From: Carboxylicivirga marina
Lineage (GTDB): Bacteria > Bacteroidota > Bacteroidia > Bacteroidales > Marinilabiliaceae
Direction: 5' to 3'
NCBI RefSeq assembly: GCF_016612505.1
Contig: NZ_JAENRR010000021.1
Span: forward strand, 1 to 64,000
DNA: 64,000 nt
This document shows positions 9,109 to 27,782 of this stretch, in pieces. Both the position numbers and the translations under genes were made by a program. Numbering within the stretch: position 1 is the stretch's first letter; each line of letters opens with the position of its first letter. The notes under the pieces were generated by a model. It was not told the DNA's origin and did not search any database. It saw only the letters and a program-made list of their open reading frames with translations.

Positions 9109-10884
9109 ATGAACGATATCAATAAAAAGAGGACAGGAAACCTTATTTCCATCCAGGATTCGTTGGTGAAGGCCCGATTCTTTGATGACGTGATAATGGG
9201 GGAGACTGCTGAAATTTCCGTTGATGGGAAATTTCTTCAGGCGGAGGTGCTGCAGATACAGCCTGATCCTAAAAATGCCGATGCCGGTATTGTAGAAATG
9301 CAGGTATTTGAAGATTTAACCGGAGCCAAAATTGGTGACGAAGTTGTTTTTAAAGGTACACCTTTGTCGGTCTTATTGGGGCCTGGACTTCTAACTAGTG
9401 TGTGGGATGGATTACAGAACCCCTTGTATAAGTTAAGCGAAGAAGATGCTTATCTAAAACCAGGCATGAATGCACCTGCTTTGGATGAAACTGTTTTATG
9501 GGATTTTACGCCTATAGTAAAAGTTGGTGATTCCGTATCCGGTGGTGATGTTATTGGAACAGTACCTGAAGGTAAAGTAGATCATAAAATTTTGGTGCCT
9601 TTTAAATATGGTGCGTGTAAGATTGAAAGTATTATCGAGAAGAGATCTGTTAATATCACACAGAAAGTAGCTGTTATTGTTGATGAGCTTAATAACAAGC
9701 ATGAATTACAGCTGGCATTTCGTCAGCCTGTGAAATCTCCTATTCCTTTTAGAGAGCGTGCCATTCCAACTAAACCTATTTCAACAGGTGTGCGTGTAAT
9801 TGATTTACTTGCTCCTGTAGGATATGGTGGGACTGTAGGAAATCCTGGGCCTTTTGGTGCCGGAAAAACTGTATTACAGCACTCATTGTGTAAATATGCT
9901 GTGGCTGATATTATTATTATGGCGGCCTGTGGCGAGCGTGCCGGTGAGGCCGTAGAGGTATTTAAAGAATTTGCAGAGTTAGAAGATCCTACAACAGGCG
10001 AATCATTGATGAAGCGTATGTGTATTTTTGGAAATACCAGTTCGATGCCGGTTGCAGCTCGTGAAGCGTCGGTATTTATCGCATTAACAGTTGGCGAATA
10101 TTACCGTTATCAAGGTAAGAAAGTTGTGCTGTTGGCAGACTCCACTTCGCGTTGGGCACAGGCTTTACGTGAGCGTAGCGGACGTCAGGGTGATATTCCA
10201 GGACCTGAGGCTTTCCCAATGGATATTCCAGATCAGATTAAAGGAATGTATCAGCGTGCAGGTGAAGATTTAGGTACAGGTGGTTCGTTAACATTTATTG
10301 GAACCGTATCGCCGGCAGGTGGTAACTTTCAGGAGCCAGTTACGCAGGCTACAATGGATGCTACAGGTGGTTTCTGGGGATTATCGCAGGACCGTGCCGA
10401 TGCTAAAAAGTATCCGGCAATCGATCCATTGGTATACACTACTTCAGTTTATGATGGATTTGTTTCGTGGAAAGATCGTAATAAAATGTTGGGTACGTTA
10501 AATGATGCCAATGATATTGATCAAACAATCAGTACTATTGGATTAAAGAAGGTACCAGTATCAAACTACATACAATATCAAAAAGGATTAACCATCGATT
10601 TCTGCGTGATGCAGCAAGATGCGTTTGAGAAAAACGATGCTTGTACACGTCCTGAACGTTTGGAAATCATTAATGAAGCCGTTCAGAACCTTATCGAACG
10701 CGAAATTAATTTCGAAGTTGGCGATATGGATGATGAGCAGCTAAAAGAGCAGATTAAACACAAGTTTGATGAACTGCGTCAGTGGTGGAGAGAATGGAAC
10801 TACTCAGCTATAAACGAAGAGCAAATTAGACATCTGCCAAAAGCAGTGGAGGAATTTATTTTACAGGAGGAATACGCCGTATGA
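9109..10884 (+). CDS. ntpA: V/A-type ATP synthase subunit A (catalytic)
   Basis: A 591-residue catalytic subunit of a rotary V/A-type ATPase. The P-loop GPFGAGKT has Lys253. Other marks are the catalytic segment GERAGE in place of the usual GERGNE, the ADSTSRWAQALRE stretch, and the bulge or non-homologous region at about residues 110-190 typical of A subunits. The A3B3 head hydrolyses or makes ATP, coupled to ion flow through the membrane ring of subunits I and K encoded downstream. It is first in a seven-gene operon, and its stop overlaps the start of subunit B (ATGA). Confidence 0.97.
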   Translation: MNDINKKRTGNLISIQDSLVKARFFDDVIMGETAEISVDGKFLQAEVLQIQPDPKNADAGIVEMQVFEDLTGAKIGDEVVFKGTPLSVLLGPGLLTSVWDGLQNPLYKLSEEDAYLKPGMNAPALDETVLWDFTPIVKVGDSVSGGDVIGTVPEGKVDHKILVPFKYGACKIESIIEKRSVNITQKVAVIVDELNNKHELQLAFRQPVKSPIPFRERAIPTKPISTGVRVIDLLAPVGYGGTVGNPGPFGAGKTVLQHSLCKYAVADIIIMAACGERAGEAVEVFKEFAELEDPTTGESLMKRMCIFGNTSSMPVAAREASVFIALTVGEYYRYQGKKVVLLADSTSRWAQALRERSGRQGDIPGPEAFPMDIPDQIKGMYQRAGEDLGTGGSLTFIGTVSPAGGNFQEPVTQATMDATGGFWGLSQDRADAKKYPAIDPLVYTTSVYDGFVSWKDRNKMLGTLNDANDIDQTISTIGLKKVPVSNYIQYQKGLTIDFCVMQQDAFEKNDACTRPERLEIINEAVQNLIEREINFEVGDMDDEQLKEQIKHKFDELRQWWREWNYSAINEEQIRHLPKAVEEFILQEEYAV

Positions 10885-12191
10885 TAAGGAAAGAAATAAA
10901 CAAAATTAGTGAGATTGGTAAAGCACTTATCTCGGTAGAAGGAAATCCTGGCGTGGCGCTAAACCACGTGGTTGAACTTTTGGAAGCTGACAGTAATCAA
11001 AGCCTTTCTTTTGCAAAAGCGATTAATATTACAGAAGATACAACGCGCTTTCAGGTATTTAATGGTACGACTGGTTTAAGTACAAAAACCAAAATTCGTA
11101 TGCACGAGATTCCGCTAACAGCTGGTTTCTCTAGTAAAATGCTTGGTCGTAGCTTCGATGGAGCTGGTGAAGTATCTGATGGTGGCCCTGAAGTTATCTT
11201 TGAAAAGCAGGTGTCAACCCGATTAGATACCTTAAATCCTACTGTTCGTAATGTGCCTAAGCAGGCTTTATGGACTGGTATTCCAATGATTGATGTATTT
11301 AATACATTGGTTAAATCACAAAAGATTCCAATTTTTGCAGGCCCAACCGAGCCGTATAATCGCTTGTTGTCACAGATTGCTAAAGGAGCTCAGGCCGATG
11401 TTATCATCTTTGCTGGTATCGGATTAAAATTTGATGAGTATCAGTATTTTAAGGAGCAGTTATCGCAGTCGGGTAACATTGATAAGACTATAATGTTTAC
11501 GCACTTGGCTGGTGATTCACAGATTAAAGGTTTGATGTTGCCTGATGTAGCTTTAAGTGTGGCACGCGAATTTGGTGATCAGGGAAAAGATGTACTGGTG
11601 CTGTTAACGGATATGACCAACTGGTCCAATATTCTTCGTAATGTGGCCAACTATCAGGATATGATTCCATCACTTCAAGGTTATCCAGGTTCATTATACT
11701 CTGAGTTAGCTAAGCGATACGAGGTGGCAGCGGATATCGAAGGAGCAGGTTCTATCACGATTATTGGTGCTACAACTCTTGAATCTCTCGAAGATCCAGT
11801 GCCTGATAACACCGGTTACATTACTGAAGGGCAGTTCTTCCTTGAAAATGGAAAACTGAAATTAGCCCGTTCTTTATCACGATTGAAACAGGGTGTTAAT
11901 GGTAAAACACGAAGTGACCATCGTGCAATCATGACGGCCATGGCCTCCTTATTGGCAGATGCTGAGAAAGCTTATGAAGCTTCGGAGGTAGGTGCAGCTA
12001 ATGATGCTTATTCTCAAAAATTGTTACGTTATCGTACCGACTTTATCGAAAATGTGGAAGAACCATTTGGTGAACCAATGGAACTGGAAGCAGCTCTGAA
12101 TAAGTGTTGGGCTATTCTTAAGCGCCATTTCGACTCTACGGAAACTGGACTCAGTAAAAAGCTGATTGAAGAATATTGGGATAAGAATTAA
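10881..12191 (+). CDS. ntpB: V/A-type ATP synthase subunit B (regulatory)
   Basis: A 436-residue non-catalytic B subunit that alternates with A in the hexameric head. It lacks a P-loop; the equivalent place reads PIFAGPTEPYNRLL, as in other B subunits. The VLVLLTDMTNW and GYPGSLYSELAKRYE segments are highly conserved in V/A-type B subunits. It is translationally coupled to subunit A by a 4-base overlap and followed by subunit E after 3 bases. Confidence 0.97.
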   Translation: MIRKEINKISEIGKALISVEGNPGVALNHVVELLEADSNQSLSFAKAINITEDTTRFQVFNGTTGLSTKTKIRMHEIPLTAGFSSKMLGRSFDGAGEVSDGGPEVIFEKQVSTRLDTLNPTVRNVPKQALWTGIPMIDVFNTLVKSQKIPIFAGPTEPYNRLLSQIAKGAQADVIIFAGIGLKFDEYQYFKEQLSQSGNIDKTIMFTHLAGDSQIKGLMLPDVALSVAREFGDQGKDVLVLLTDMTNWSNILRNVANYQDMIPSLQGYPGSLYSELAKRYEVAADIEGAGSITIIGATTLESLEDPVPDNTGYITEGQFFLENGKLKLARSLSRLKQGVNGKTRSDHRAIMTAMASLLADAEKAYEASEVGAANDAYSQKLLRYRTDFIENVEEPFGEPMELEAALNKCWAILKRHFDSTETGLSKKLIEEYWDKN

Positions 12192-24410: not shown

Positions 24411-26042
24411 ATGACAGAGAAAATACAAAAAACATTACGTGACTCAGCCGCTATGAGGTGGGGAGCGTTGATCTTATTAAGTGCCTTAACCTTTTCTACT
24501 TATTGGTTTCAGGATTTCTTTGGTGGGGTTAAAGATTTATTATTAGATGAATACGGTTTTACAAGTGAAAACTTCGGACGTATCATCAGTTTAACAACTT
24601 TTGCCAACCTGTTTGGTATGATCATGCTAGGTGGTATCCTTATGGATAAATGGGGTGTGCGTATTGCTGGTTTGCTTTTTGGTGGTCTGTCAGCCGCCGG
24701 AGGTTTAGTTGTTTATTTAGCTTCTATTGGTACGTTTGGCGATGAGCCTAATACTGTTTTGTGGTCAATGATTGTCGGCCGTATGATGTTTGGTTCAGGA
24801 CTTGAAGTGGTTTGTGTGGTGGCTACCCGTACCATTGTTAAGTGGTTTAAAGGTTACGAGTTGGCACTGGCTATGGCTATTAACATGGGCTTTGGTCGTT
24901 TAGGTTCGGCTATGGGTATTGCGGTTTCGCCAGATATCGCAAGTGGACATTTCTCAACAGCCGTTGGTTTTGCTGCATCTCTTCTGGGTATCGCTTTGAT
25001 TATGTTTGTCGTTTATATCTTCTTTGATGTTAAGCTAGATAAACAAAATAAAGAAGCTGCAGAAGAAGGATCAGAAGATGAGGAATTTAAAATTGCCGAC
25101 TTGTTGAAATTGCTAAAAAATTCAACATTTATTTATATTACACTATTATGTGTGGCCTTCTATGCAGCGGTATTTCCATTTATTCAGTATGCAGCTGACT
25201 TGTTAGTTAACAAGTTTGGATTTACATCAGCATTGCCTGAAGGAGCAAATATTGTTGTTAACGGGAGTCCGGCTTTAGGTAATTCATTGGTATTTGTAGG
25301 CTTATTCCTGTTTGCTATTGCCTTTTCAACTATTCCGCCTCGATTAAAAACAAATTCTCAGGCTTTTATAGCGCGTATTGCCATTGCCGGATTATTTGCC
25401 TTGTACATCGGAAGCATGTGGGATGTGTTCTCGCAATGGTTAGATAATGGGCCAAAAACGGCTTCGTTAATTCCGCTTGGTTCTATCATCTTTACTCCAA
25501 TTTTTGGTAGTTATGTTGATAAAAATGGTAAAGCTGCCTCTTTAATGATTCTGGGCTCTTTATTGTTAATCTTTGCTCATTTATCGTTGTCGGTATTTAA
25601 TAACGTGTATTTAGGATACATGGGACTGTTAAGTTTAGGTATCGCCTTTTCACTAGTGCCGGCGGCTATGTGGCCTTCAGTGGCTAAGATTGTTCCTGAA
25701 AGTCGCTTGGGATCTGCTTATTCATTTATGTTTACAATTCAGAACTATGGTCTGGCTGCTTTCTTCTGGGGAATTGGAGCTGTTCTTGATTTAGTTAATC
25801 CTAATGTAATTAAAATTACAGAAGGATTCAGAGAGAAGTTTGAGGGCATGGGCTTAGCGAAAGAAGAAGTTGTTGCGAAGATTGATGCGTTAAAGCTTTC
25901 AGGTGAGATTCCACCATTTGATTATACGATTCCGATTTTAATTTTAGTGGCTTGTGGTGTTATTTCTATCTTCTTGTCATTTAAGTTAAAGCAAGCCGAT
26001 AAAAAATATGGTTACGGATTAGAAAAAGCTTCTAACAACTAA
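24411..26042 (+). CDS. MFS transporter
   Basis: A 543-residue major facilitator with about 12 helices. The start MRWGALILLSALTFSTYWFQDFFGG and loop GGILMDKWGVRIAG carry the MFS motif A region. A charged cytosolic loop (KEAAEEGSEDEEFKI) joins the two halves, and periplasmic insertions occur near residues 280 and 480. The substrate is unknown. Position after pepD suggests a role with peptides, amino acids or nucleosides, but that is inference. Confidence 0.9.
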   Translation: MTEKIQKTLRDSAAMRWGALILLSALTFSTYWFQDFFGGVKDLLLDEYGFTSENFGRIISLTTFANLFGMIMLGGILMDKWGVRIAGLLFGGLSAAGGLVVYLASIGTFGDEPNTVLWSMIVGRMMFGSGLEVVCVVATRTIVKWFKGYELALAMAINMGFGRLGSAMGIAVSPDIASGHFSTAVGFAASLLGIALIMFVVYIFFDVKLDKQNKEAAEEGSEDEEFKIADLLKLLKNSTFIYITLLCVAFYAAVFPFIQYAADLLVNKFGFTSALPEGANIVVNGSPALGNSLVFVGLFLFAIAFSTIPPRLKTNSQAFIARIAIAGLFALYIGSMWDVFSQWLDNGPKTASLIPLGSIIFTPIFGSYVDKNGKAASLMILGSLLLIFAHLSLSVFNNVYLGYMGLLSLGIAFSLVPAAMWPSVAKIVPESRLGSAYSFMFTIQNYGLAAFFWGIGAVLDLVNPNVIKITEGFREKFEGMGLAKEEVVAKIDALKLSGEIPPFDYTIPILILVACGVISIFLSFKLKQADKKYGYGLEKASNN

Positions 26043-26069: not shown

Positions 26070-26104
26070 ACGGCCATCTATTTTTAGGTGGCTGTTTTTT
26101 TTGC
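26070..26104 (+). terminator. Terminator of the MFS gene
   Basis: CGGCCATCTA and TAGGTGGCTG form a stem with two G-T pairs, followed by eight Ts. Confidence 0.8.
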
Positions 26105-26239
26105 TCAAATTTATACTGCTGGATATCTTGAAATTTTATTGCAGCGTATTGTAGGTATTAGCTTTGATGGCGTATATAATTATTAAGATGCTGAGCACTT
26201 CATTTGGCTTCCGTGCGCTTGTATTAGTTCAATATAAAC

Positions 26240-26460
26240 CTACGGAAGCCAGTTTTAAGTCTACGGAACTTCATTTTTAAGCTACGGAACTAATAATTAA
26301 CCCTACGGAACACTAAAAAATAGCTACGGAAGCCTCATATGAACCTACGGAAGAGCAGATGAAGGCTACGGAAGAGCAGATGAAGGCTACGGAACAGGAA
26401 AAAATGTTTACGGAAGTGGAAGAAAGAGCTACGGAAGCCAGGTTTAGGTCTACGGAAAGT
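26240..26460. repeat. Eleven-unit tandem array with exact 21-bp period, core CTACGGAA
   Basis: TACGGAA occurs at 26241, 26262, 26283, 26304, 26325, 26346, 26367, 26388, 26409, 26430 and 26451: eleven copies, each exactly 21 bases apart. Ten are preceded by C and one by T. The other 13 bases vary; units 6 and 7 are identical, and units 1 and 10 are alike (GCCAG after the core). An inverted copy of the core with flank (GGCTTCCGT, 26216-26224) precedes the array and could pair with unit 1. Read in frame the units give heptads with Thr-Glu (such as ATEEQMK), but units 2 and 4 contain TAA stops, so the whole array is not one coding region. The array lies between the MFS terminator and the purA terminator. 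Confidence 0.93.
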
Positions 26461-26462
26461 GC

Positions 26463-26496
26463 AAAAAAAAGCCTGCAACAATGTGCAGGCTTTCAA
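26463..26496 (-). terminator. Terminator of purA
   Basis: AAAGCCTGCA and TGCAGGCTTT form a perfect 10-bp stem with a 6-nt loop. On the minus strand the stem is followed by a run of eight Ts. Confidence 0.88.
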
Positions 26497-26516: not shown

Positions 26517-27782
26517 TTATTTACGAACGATAGTCTGTTCACGGTCAGGACCAACAGAAACGATGGTGATTGGTACCTCAAGCTCTTTTTCAAGGTAAGC
26601 AATGTAATCACTTAATTCCTGTGGGAATTCATCTTCTGACTTAACACCTGTTAAATCCTCTTTCCATCCTTTGATTTCTTTATAGATTGGCTCTACATCA
26701 TCAGTTAATTCAAATGGGAATTCTTCGGTAATCGTTCCATCAGGTAATTTATAGGCTGTTGCAGCTTTAATGGTCTCAAAACCACTTAATACATCACCTT
26801 TGGTCATGATTAATTGTGTAACACCATTAATCATTACTGAGTATTTTAAAGCAACTAAGTCGACCCAACCGCAACGACGAGGACGACCTGTAGTAGCACC
26901 AAATTCATGGCCAGCTTTACGCAGTTCTTCACCTGTTTCGTCGAATAACTCAGTAGGGAATGGGCCACTACCAACACGCGTACAATAGGCTTTGAAGATA
27001 CCGTATACTTCACCAATTTTGTTTGGCGCTACACCCATACCTGTACATGCACCGGCACAAATAGTGTTAGATGATGTAACAAATGGATATGAACCAAAAT
27101 CAATGTCTAACAAAGTACCCTGAGCACCTTCTGCCAAGATGGTTTTTCCAGCCTTAAGGTGTTTGTTGATCTCGTGCTCACTATCAATAATGATACAGCC
27201 TTTAAGGGTTTCAATACCTTCAGTAAGTCCCTTTTCAAACTCTTCAATGTTATATTCAAAATCGTACATTTCAAGCATTTTAACATGCTTCTCTTTTAAT
27301 GCAGCGTATTTTTCTTCGAAGTTATGAAGGATATCACCCACACGAAGACCATTACGGCCTGTTTTATCCATATAGGTTGGACCAATACCTTTTAGTGTAG
27401 AGCCAATCTTGGTTTTACCTTTAGACGCTTCAGATGCTGCATCTAAAATGCGGTGAGTTGGTAATATTAAATGGGCTTTCTTAGAGATATAAAGGTTTTT
27501 AGTAATATCAAACCCTTTTTCTTTAAGCGAGTCTATTTCGTGTTTGAAAGTGATTGGGTCAAGCACCACTCCGTTACCAACAATATTAGCTTTGTCGTTA
27601 TGGAAAATACCCGATGGGATATTGTGCAACACGTGTTTGAAATTATCAAACTCTAATGTGTGACCTGCATTTGGTCCTCCCTGAAAACGGGTGATGACAT
27701 CATATTGAGGAGTTAGAACATCAACAACTTTTCCTTTGCCTTCGTCCCCCCATTGGAGTCCTAGTAAAACATCAACCTTCAT
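26517..27782 (-). CDS. purA: Adenylosuccinate synthase
   Basis: A 421-residue GTP-dependent enzyme that joins IMP and aspartate, the first committed step to AMP. Motifs are clear: the N-terminal loop GLQWGDEGKGK with catalytic Asp and Lys, NAGHT, GSTLKGIGPTYMDK, the switch loop region near ILAEGAQGTLLDIDFGSYPF, and GRPRRCGWVDLVALKY near residue 295. Length is normal for the family. It follows fur and rsh on the same strand, a neighbourhood I recall from other Bacteroidota. Confidence 0.97.
   Translation of the reverse strand: MKVDVLLGLQWGDEGKGKVVDVLTPQYDVITRFQGGPNAGHTLEFDNFKHVLHNIPSGIFHNDKANIVGNGVVLDPITFKHEIDSLKEKGFDITKNLYISKKAHLILPTHRILDAASEASKGKTKIGSTLKGIGPTYMDKTGRNGLRVGDILHNFEEKYAALKEKHVKMLEMYDFEYNIEEFEKGLTEGIETLKGCIIIDSEHEINKHLKAGKTILAEGAQGTLLDIDFGSYPFVTSSNTICAGACTGMGVAPNKIGEVYGIFKAYCTRVGSGPFPTELFDETGEELRKAGHEFGATTGRPRRCGWVDLVALKYSVMINGVTQLIMTKGDVLSGFETIKAATAYKLPDGTITEEFPFELTDDVEPIYKEIKGWKEDLTGVKSEDEFPQELSDYIAYLEKELEVPITIVSVGPDREQTIVRK

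Follow-up and report, generated by a model that had tools for sequence, protein, structure and literature searches.

The window, by which we mean the whole 64-kb stretch of DNA that was analysed, contains an array of eleven short direct repeats which is probably a solo copy of a module that elsewhere pairs a gene with an array, forming a row of candidate binding sites on one helix face. In other copies of such modules, arrays adjoin genes of one protein superfamily. Superfamily-bearing genomes are a minority, and a large share of their superfamily loci carry arrays, with cores that differ from locus to locus.

In the window array (Table 1), copies of the word TACGGAA start at positions 26241, 26262 and so on to 26451. 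All steps equal 21, which bears out the original prediction of 11 copies at an exact 21-base interval (26241-26457). The 8-base word is CTACGGAA in 10 of the 11 copies and TTACGGAA in the ninth, and core columns 2-8 show no variation. Pairwise identity of the spacers is 36% in the 10 complete units vs 27% in shuffled ones, and none of 2000 shuffles reaches 36%. The spacers have drifted yet are still of common descent, and the claim that the core is kept better than the remainder is correct, its columns being invariant. Units 6 and 7 are identical to each other. In-frame stops in two array units, also part of the original prediction, are found in the TE frame, and the inverted core described 5' of the array is present as well. 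The units are non-palindromic, and folding the array as single-stranded DNA gave no structure signal (z -0.94). Rfam at gathering thresholds has zero matches within the 64-kb window. Outside the array, the window contains TACGGAA at 12137 on the plus strand and at 9531, 16824 and 31678 on the minus strand.

The array was correctly placed in a non-coding gap. It sits between convergent genes, that of an MFS-type transporter (+) and one which we take to be purA (-), encoding adenylosuccinate synthase. The minus-strand T-run of the putative purA terminator abuts the last array unit. A hairpin like the one 3' of the MFS gene stands at the corresponding place in relative G010. The gap was compared in G010 and G013, two relatives seen with the purA-MFS gap in common, and neither has such an array in it; some other members of the genus have other neighbours there. 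Close to the position that corresponds to the window array, G013 (L040) carries CGAAGGAAC in a short series of repeats, about 11 bp in period. Reading of the neighbouring ORFs revealed no Cas-like ORF beside the array.

Table 1. Coordinates of the window array and adjacent features (positions in the 64-kb window)
Feature	Position	Strand	Basis or remark
Array, 11 x (C/T)TACGGAA, 21-bp pitch, 13-bp diverged spacers	26240..26457	+	Sequence
Inverted core GGCTTCCGT	26206..26214	-	Sequence; TTCCGT start 32 bp before first direct core
AT-rich gap, 25 bp, inverted core to first direct core	26216..26240	.	Length constant across the genome's three TACGGAA arrays
MFS transporter-like gene, neighbour outside the element	24411..26042	+	Name by reading the sequence
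Presumed purA, adenylosuccinate synthase, neighbour outside the element	26517..27782	-	Name judged from the sequence
Hairpin, read as purA terminator	26468..26493	-	Scanner gives plus-strand stem only; minus-strand reading by eye
Terminator-like hairpin and T-run 3' of the MFS gene	26071..26100	+	By eye; absent from scanner list

The source genome (G000; 5.65 Mb, 206 contigs) was covered in whole by a word-pair scan. Related matches such as Labilibaculum suggest that it belongs to the Bacteroidota. It holds three TACGGAA arrays: that of the window (11 copies), C175:425-624 (10 copies) and C66:5622-5712 (5 copies). All 23 TACGGAA pairs with gaps of 2-32 bases lie 21 bp apart, start to start, while the reversed word, used as a control, gave 4 pairs at such gaps and 1 pair at the fixed spacing. 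In each of the three, an inverted core that matches at six or all of seven positions stands exactly 32 bp ahead of the first direct core; apart from it, the flanks of the three arrays have no significant similarity. In a Labilibaculum MAG (L090) the array is two-sided, with 6 inverted units facing 8 direct ones, all in 21-bp register, around a centre of 32 bp (298 to 330). Two loci of G259, from the same phylum, also show two-sided 21-bp arrays, with a CTACGGAAG-type core and a centre about 1 base longer, as judged by eye. The G259 loci L190 (C21) and L194 (C23) are long stretches of non-coding DNA that carry two-sided 21-bp arrays; their flanks are closely alike, and they may represent a dispersed element. 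The inverted core as a universal part of such arrays was rejected, as it is missing up to 80 bp upstream of all three arrays in G013. The original prediction allowed that the array might be confined to this place; for arrays as a class that is untrue, though few genomes share this exact core.

Scans of relatives with TACGGAA and the reversed word led us to reject TACGGAA as a universally privileged word. The 99 relatives besides the source genome contain 11 TACGGAA pairs at 21 bp, and the reversed word gives more. Among 395 genomes in the phylum, the source genome counted, four show a 3-copy pattern of TACGGAA and none shows one of the reversed word; the pattern in G100 proved to be a 7-bp microsatellite, with that in G412 unclassified. 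Scanning a genome collection for the core yielded at least 119 stretches, of which the 80 listed matches were inspected, plus 15 viral loci. Among the matches listed, most loci resemble unrelated short tandem repeats or possibly coding ones, many have conserved spacers, and a clear superfamily gene is present only at L090, with a weak match at L106 (E 0.0045). Two Hymenobacter loci (L086, L127) show 21-22 bp TACGGAA-type repeats and an inverted core immediately before a Rep-like start, of a gene taken by eye to be one for plasmid replication; these repeats are iteron-like. In Bacillaceae (Firmicutes; L065, L074, L087), CGGAA-containing 21-bp repeats with diverged spacers were observed. Those of L065 are found inside a longer higher-order repeat, ahead of a gene which by eye is NERD-like.

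Arrays of the same kind are also built on other cores. A periodic-array scan (period 9-45, at least 4 copies) of 345 kb of the source genome, a sample including its three TACGGAA arrays, disclosed five arrays. The two extra ones have a 23-bp period (C6), and a 21-bp period with core CGTGAGAT (C10:2338 on). In the C10 array inverted units stand ahead of direct ones, by eye. At this locus (L258, 2309-2620), a second array family of the source genome, steps are mainly of 21 bp, some of the units have decayed, and a higher-order repeat of 105 bp can be discerned by eye. Genome G013 contains three arrays with an ACGGAAG core, one gene-linked (C440) and two gene-less (C286 and C600); no superfamily gene was found in the 16 and 8.5 kb examined, respectively, near the latter two. 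The flanks of the C286 and C600 arrays are alike over some 170 bp on the upstream side and 43 bp on the downstream side, and those of C440 show borderline similarity to them at best. A search for the G013 core through 14 genomes of the genus returned these three arrays, the related arrays of the source genome itself, and none or one isolated pair in each of the 12 others.

The array at C175 lies upstream of a gene for a 233-aa protein, a 41% homolog of which adjoins the ACGGAAG array of G013. Correspondingly, the CGTGAGAT array at C10 is beside a gene for a 247-aa protein, and a 40% homolog of the latter directly adjoins the Labilibaculum array in L090. Using each homolog pair as a query, 393 genomes of the order were searched. 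Members of the 233-aa branch turned up at 79 places in 33 genomes and members of the 247-aa branch at 37 places in 16 genomes, and 30 loci of each branch were fetched. The NCBIfam model NF052641, 'PQLLE family protein', matches 12 of 28 proteins in the first branch and 21 of 29 in the second at E <=0.1. The C175 protein scores 17 bits (E 0.0036), far below the curated cut-off of 80 bits, and its tie to PQLLE comes by profile comparison only; six other matches in the source genome are above the cut-off, one of them with an internal stop. Comparisons by hhalign between the 233-aa, 247-aa and PQLLE groups gave E-values of 7.7e-9, 3.4e-10 and 1.3e-5, and on this profile similarity the three make up one uncharacterised superfamily. 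One superfamily member matches Pfam DUF6261 (E 0.0012), and neither the NF052641 nor the DUF6261 description gives a function. In the open-access literature no paper with 'PQLLE' was encountered, and 'DUF6261' appeared once, in a paper which by its title concerns Streptococcus drug resistance.

The linked proteins are non-basic, with median pI of 6.2 and 5.7. Compared with profile families, they match no partition family and no transposase at a usable E-value, the TnpV match of one member being at 0.031. No relative of the partner proteins was found on viral contigs, and none of the PQLLE or 247-aa proteins on plasmids. Structure prediction of the L090 protein, run without an alignment, was unusable (pLDDT 43.9), and searches of solved structures yielded no match of use (best E 0.11 and 0.038). 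The PADLOC AbiEii model matches 2 of 29 members of the 247-aa branch (best E 0.00011). Some 233-aa-branch proteins (L277-L279, L300, L302-L304, L361) have an extra C-terminal beta domain with CarboxypepD_reg-like matches, fn3-like by eye in L361. Such a domain is unusual for a supposed cytoplasmic DNA-linked protein.

Arrays of at least 4 copies are present within about 1.5 kb at 11 of 30 loci of the 233-aa branch and at 14 of 30 loci of the 247-aa branch. The period of these 25 arrays is 21 in 23 cases and 20 in two. Control purA loci have an array at 1 of 14, namely in the window itself. As further controls, 400 kb of G002 contained 4 arrays (periods 20, 21, 21 and 23), and 400 kb of G010 contained none. 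When 900 bp were read on each side of confirmed genes for arrays of at least 4 copies, arrays of the 233-aa branch were located upstream in 11 of 29 genes (9 of 27 minus the two seeds) and downstream in none. In the 247-aa branch, 15 of 31 genes have an array, 13 downstream and 2 upstream (13 of 29, on either side, minus seeds). Identities of 6-mers in the branch flanks at lag 21 amount to 480 upstream and 306 downstream, with mostly 2-30 at lags off multiples of 21.

The linkage was also observed where loci were picked by protein and not by array. The NF052641 search matched 11 of 345 genomes of the phylum, and an upstream array is present at 16 of 30 loci (32 places listed), in 9 of the 11 genomes. 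Every one of these 16 arrays has a period of 21, and their core words are all different. Upstream 6-mer identities number 646 at lag 21 vs 3-19 at other lags of 15-30, with a weaker downstream signal (113 at lag 42, 46 at lag 21). About half of the superfamily loci are without an array at the threshold of at least 4 copies. This includes the five PQLLE loci fetched from the source genome, among which L359 shows an array at a weaker test. In 380 kb of control DNA from seven NF052641 genomes, taken from contigs known to bear superfamily members, there are nine arrays of period 21 and a single one of period 15. Both superfamily ORFs detected in this DNA have an upstream array, and 6 of the 9 period-21 arrays lie apart from every superfamily ORF detected; since the PQLLE model used on control loci, solo loci and the listed TACGGAA matches has two misframed sequences (L337, L347) among nine, members may be missed. 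The NF052641 genomes are rich in 21-bp arrays, for which superfamily genes are a strong focus and not the sole place.

Core words follow the relatedness of the linked proteins poorly. In the 233-aa branch the core shows no tracking of protein similarity (Mantel r 0.016, 16 arrays, 2159 of 5000 permutations as high), while in the 247-aa branch the core tracks protein similarity weakly (r 0.238, 17 arrays, 64 of 5000). A strict protein-core code thus finds no support in the former branch and weak support in the latter, and was rejected. In one genome, two proteins with 72% identity are linked to different cores, 12 of 21 unit positions being alike (the all-pair mean is 10.4), and two 78%-identical paralogs of the source genome have similar ones, CGTGAGAT and CGTGATAT. 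Such weak tracking is odd for a fixed protein-DNA code. Turnover is faster in cores than in proteins.

Spacing between cores was examined in 44 flanks (n=236). It is 21 in 138 cases, 42 in 51, 63 in 9, 20 in 9, 22 in 1 and other values in 28. In the array of L361, the 21-bp unit is divided into half-units of 10 and 11 bp. A Bacteroidales MAG (L063, 697-900) has TACGGAA at steps of 10 and 11 bp, the mean being one helical turn. Because of these half-units and steps, the basic ruler looks like one turn of B-DNA. In the window array whole helical turns separate the sites and the length is constant, with zero indels. Among the possibilities put forward in the original prediction, that of a phased binding array fits best, considering the zero indels, no codon signal, the two-turn period, the half-units of one related array and the inverted core about three turns off.

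The alternative that the repeats are, or once were, coding for a heptad (coiled-coil) protein, 21 bp being seven codons, was addressed with 51 entries for 50 distinct arrays, C175 being counted twice. The best frame has 28 stops vs 32.3 expected, and all six frames together have 1080 vs 1102.8; codon-phase spread is unremarkable, with 1 of 51 entries at p < 0.05. The sequence ATEEQMKATEEQMK in the window does resemble a coiled coil, and in the 26 units of the source genome's three arrays stops are least frequent in the TE frame (4, the other frames having 7 and 13). Nevertheless, silent positions of the core show zero variation over 23 complete units in these arrays, and spacings of 20 and 22 as well as 10- and 11-bp half-units occur, so that a decayed heptad tract, one of the earlier proposals, is hardly credible. 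Ordinary minisatellites, formed by replication slippage of 21-bp repeats and subsequent drift, are highly improbable too. The identical units 6 and 7 and the higher-order repeat of C10 indicate that tandem duplication does build arrays, and conserved spacers at many TACGGAA loci among the matches listed are in favour of this origin. It conflicts with an invariant core next to spacers of 36% identity and with 23 steps free of length change, as had been argued at the outset in calling simple slippage a poor explanation, and also with the dominance of a single period across different cores, the strong superfamily linkage and the fixed 32-bp inverted leader. A guide or RNA array (a mini CRISPR-like row of 8-nt repeats and 13-nt spacers) or an RNA sponge could draw on the fixed unit length, the locus-specific core and the adjacent uncharacterised gene, and a core unfixed by protein relatedness is what a programmable system would permit. 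This reading is very unlikely, given that spacers within the window array are related and not independent, that Rfam and folding gave no signal, and that the half-units and constant inverted leader point to duplex DNA.

A weightier alternative, which we still regard as rather unlikely, is dispersed selfish or mobile DNA of a REPIN-RAYT-like kind. Gene-linked arrays would then be autonomous, solo arrays such as that of the window would be non-autonomous copies spreading inside a genome, and phasing would come from recognition by the mobilising protein. In both the source genome and G013, one gene-linked and two other arrays exist per core. The C286 and C600 arrays of G013 occupy different sites with common flanks, the window site is array-free in G010 and G013, and cores vary by locus, with quick turnover. 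These observations have to be set against linked proteins that match no transposase family at a usable E-value and whose relatives are absent from viral contigs and, for PQLLE and 247-aa proteins, from plasmids. Furthermore, the arrays of the source genome share no significant flanks beyond the inverted core, the gene-linked array of G013 has borderline similarity at best to the other two, and no target duplication or ends could be defined. An RNA-guided or transposon substrate, as had been suggested, is possible in part: the dispersed same-core arrays and the two G013 arrays with shared flanks speak for it, whereas no CRISPR or transposase link was found.

Returning to the gene-plus-array module, the 8-bp core would be a putative protein-binding site, and the 21-bp pitch would set all sites on one DNA face. 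The partner protein may bind the core. Along the array a protein could assemble cooperatively, most likely the superfamily member with the same core or its recruit. The array would more likely be a trans-addressed site for anchoring, organising or dissemination than an operator of the neighbouring gene. A trans-addressed site is favoured because arrays are upstream (233-aa and PQLLE genes), downstream (247-aa genes) or gene-less (the window). Against the reading as a whole stand the poor tracking of proteins by cores, the non-basic pI of the linked proteins, the control arrays that lie apart from superfamily ORFs and the array-less half of the superfamily loci. More tentatively, it is possible that these elements represent an undescribed two-part chromosomal system of Bacteroidota. 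In it, paralogs of a helical superfamily would each have a private 8-bp address repeated every two turns, with further copies, including that of the window, at other chromosomal sites; there the protein or its partner would assemble, and DNA would be anchored, organised or spread. Compared with the protein, the address would change much faster, which is how an arms race or a programmable system might behave. Survey of the open-access literature, a scope that leaves subscription papers and preprints aside, found no description of such arrays or of the superfamily link, which is a weak negative. If the proposal is true, each array becomes a testable partner for proteins of an orphan superfamily, and non-coding repeats usually dismissed as minisatellites become a functional element of fixed geometry. 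Rapid core change at a constant 21-bp pitch then raises the question of how one scaffold keeps the ruler and alters the word, and orthogonal array-protein pairs would be potential DNA-labelling tools.

Among known systems, REPIN-RAYT, iterons and partition arrays are the nearest concepts, and each fails at least one defining feature or lacks evidence. The parS/parC sites are repeated short sequences where a partner protein assembles; they differ from the present arrays in that the proteins linked here match no partition family and cores differ by locus. CRISPR arrays have unrelated spacers, unlike the mutually related spacers of the window array, and CRISPR was rejected as its identity on the ground that 0 of 2000 shuffles are as similar. 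Plasmid iterons are direct repeats of 17-22 bp that share a single face of the helix and have an inverted copy close to the gene, and the window array resembles them in its direct repeats of helical period and its inverted copy. However, the present arrays are tied to another superfamily. Rep_3 (PF01051) has 0 matches across the whole source genome, while 2 of 14 control genomes match, and Rep_3 iterons were rejected as the identity of the window array for want of a Rep_3 initiator in this genome.

The partner of REP repeats, RAYT (TnpA-REP), is a Y1 transposase. The likeness to REPIN/RAYT is in short dispersed intergenic units tied to one gene family, with a lineage-specific core common to linked and solo copies. 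REPs are described as 20-40 bp palindromes tied to a transposase gene (PMC3116915, PMC3733652, PMC8266576). In contrast, the elements described here form 21-bp phased arrays, the window unit is non-palindromic, and the partner is without a recognised transposase domain. Dispersed copies sharing the core of a linked one, a REPIN/RAYT trait, are present as three arrays in the source genome and three in G013.
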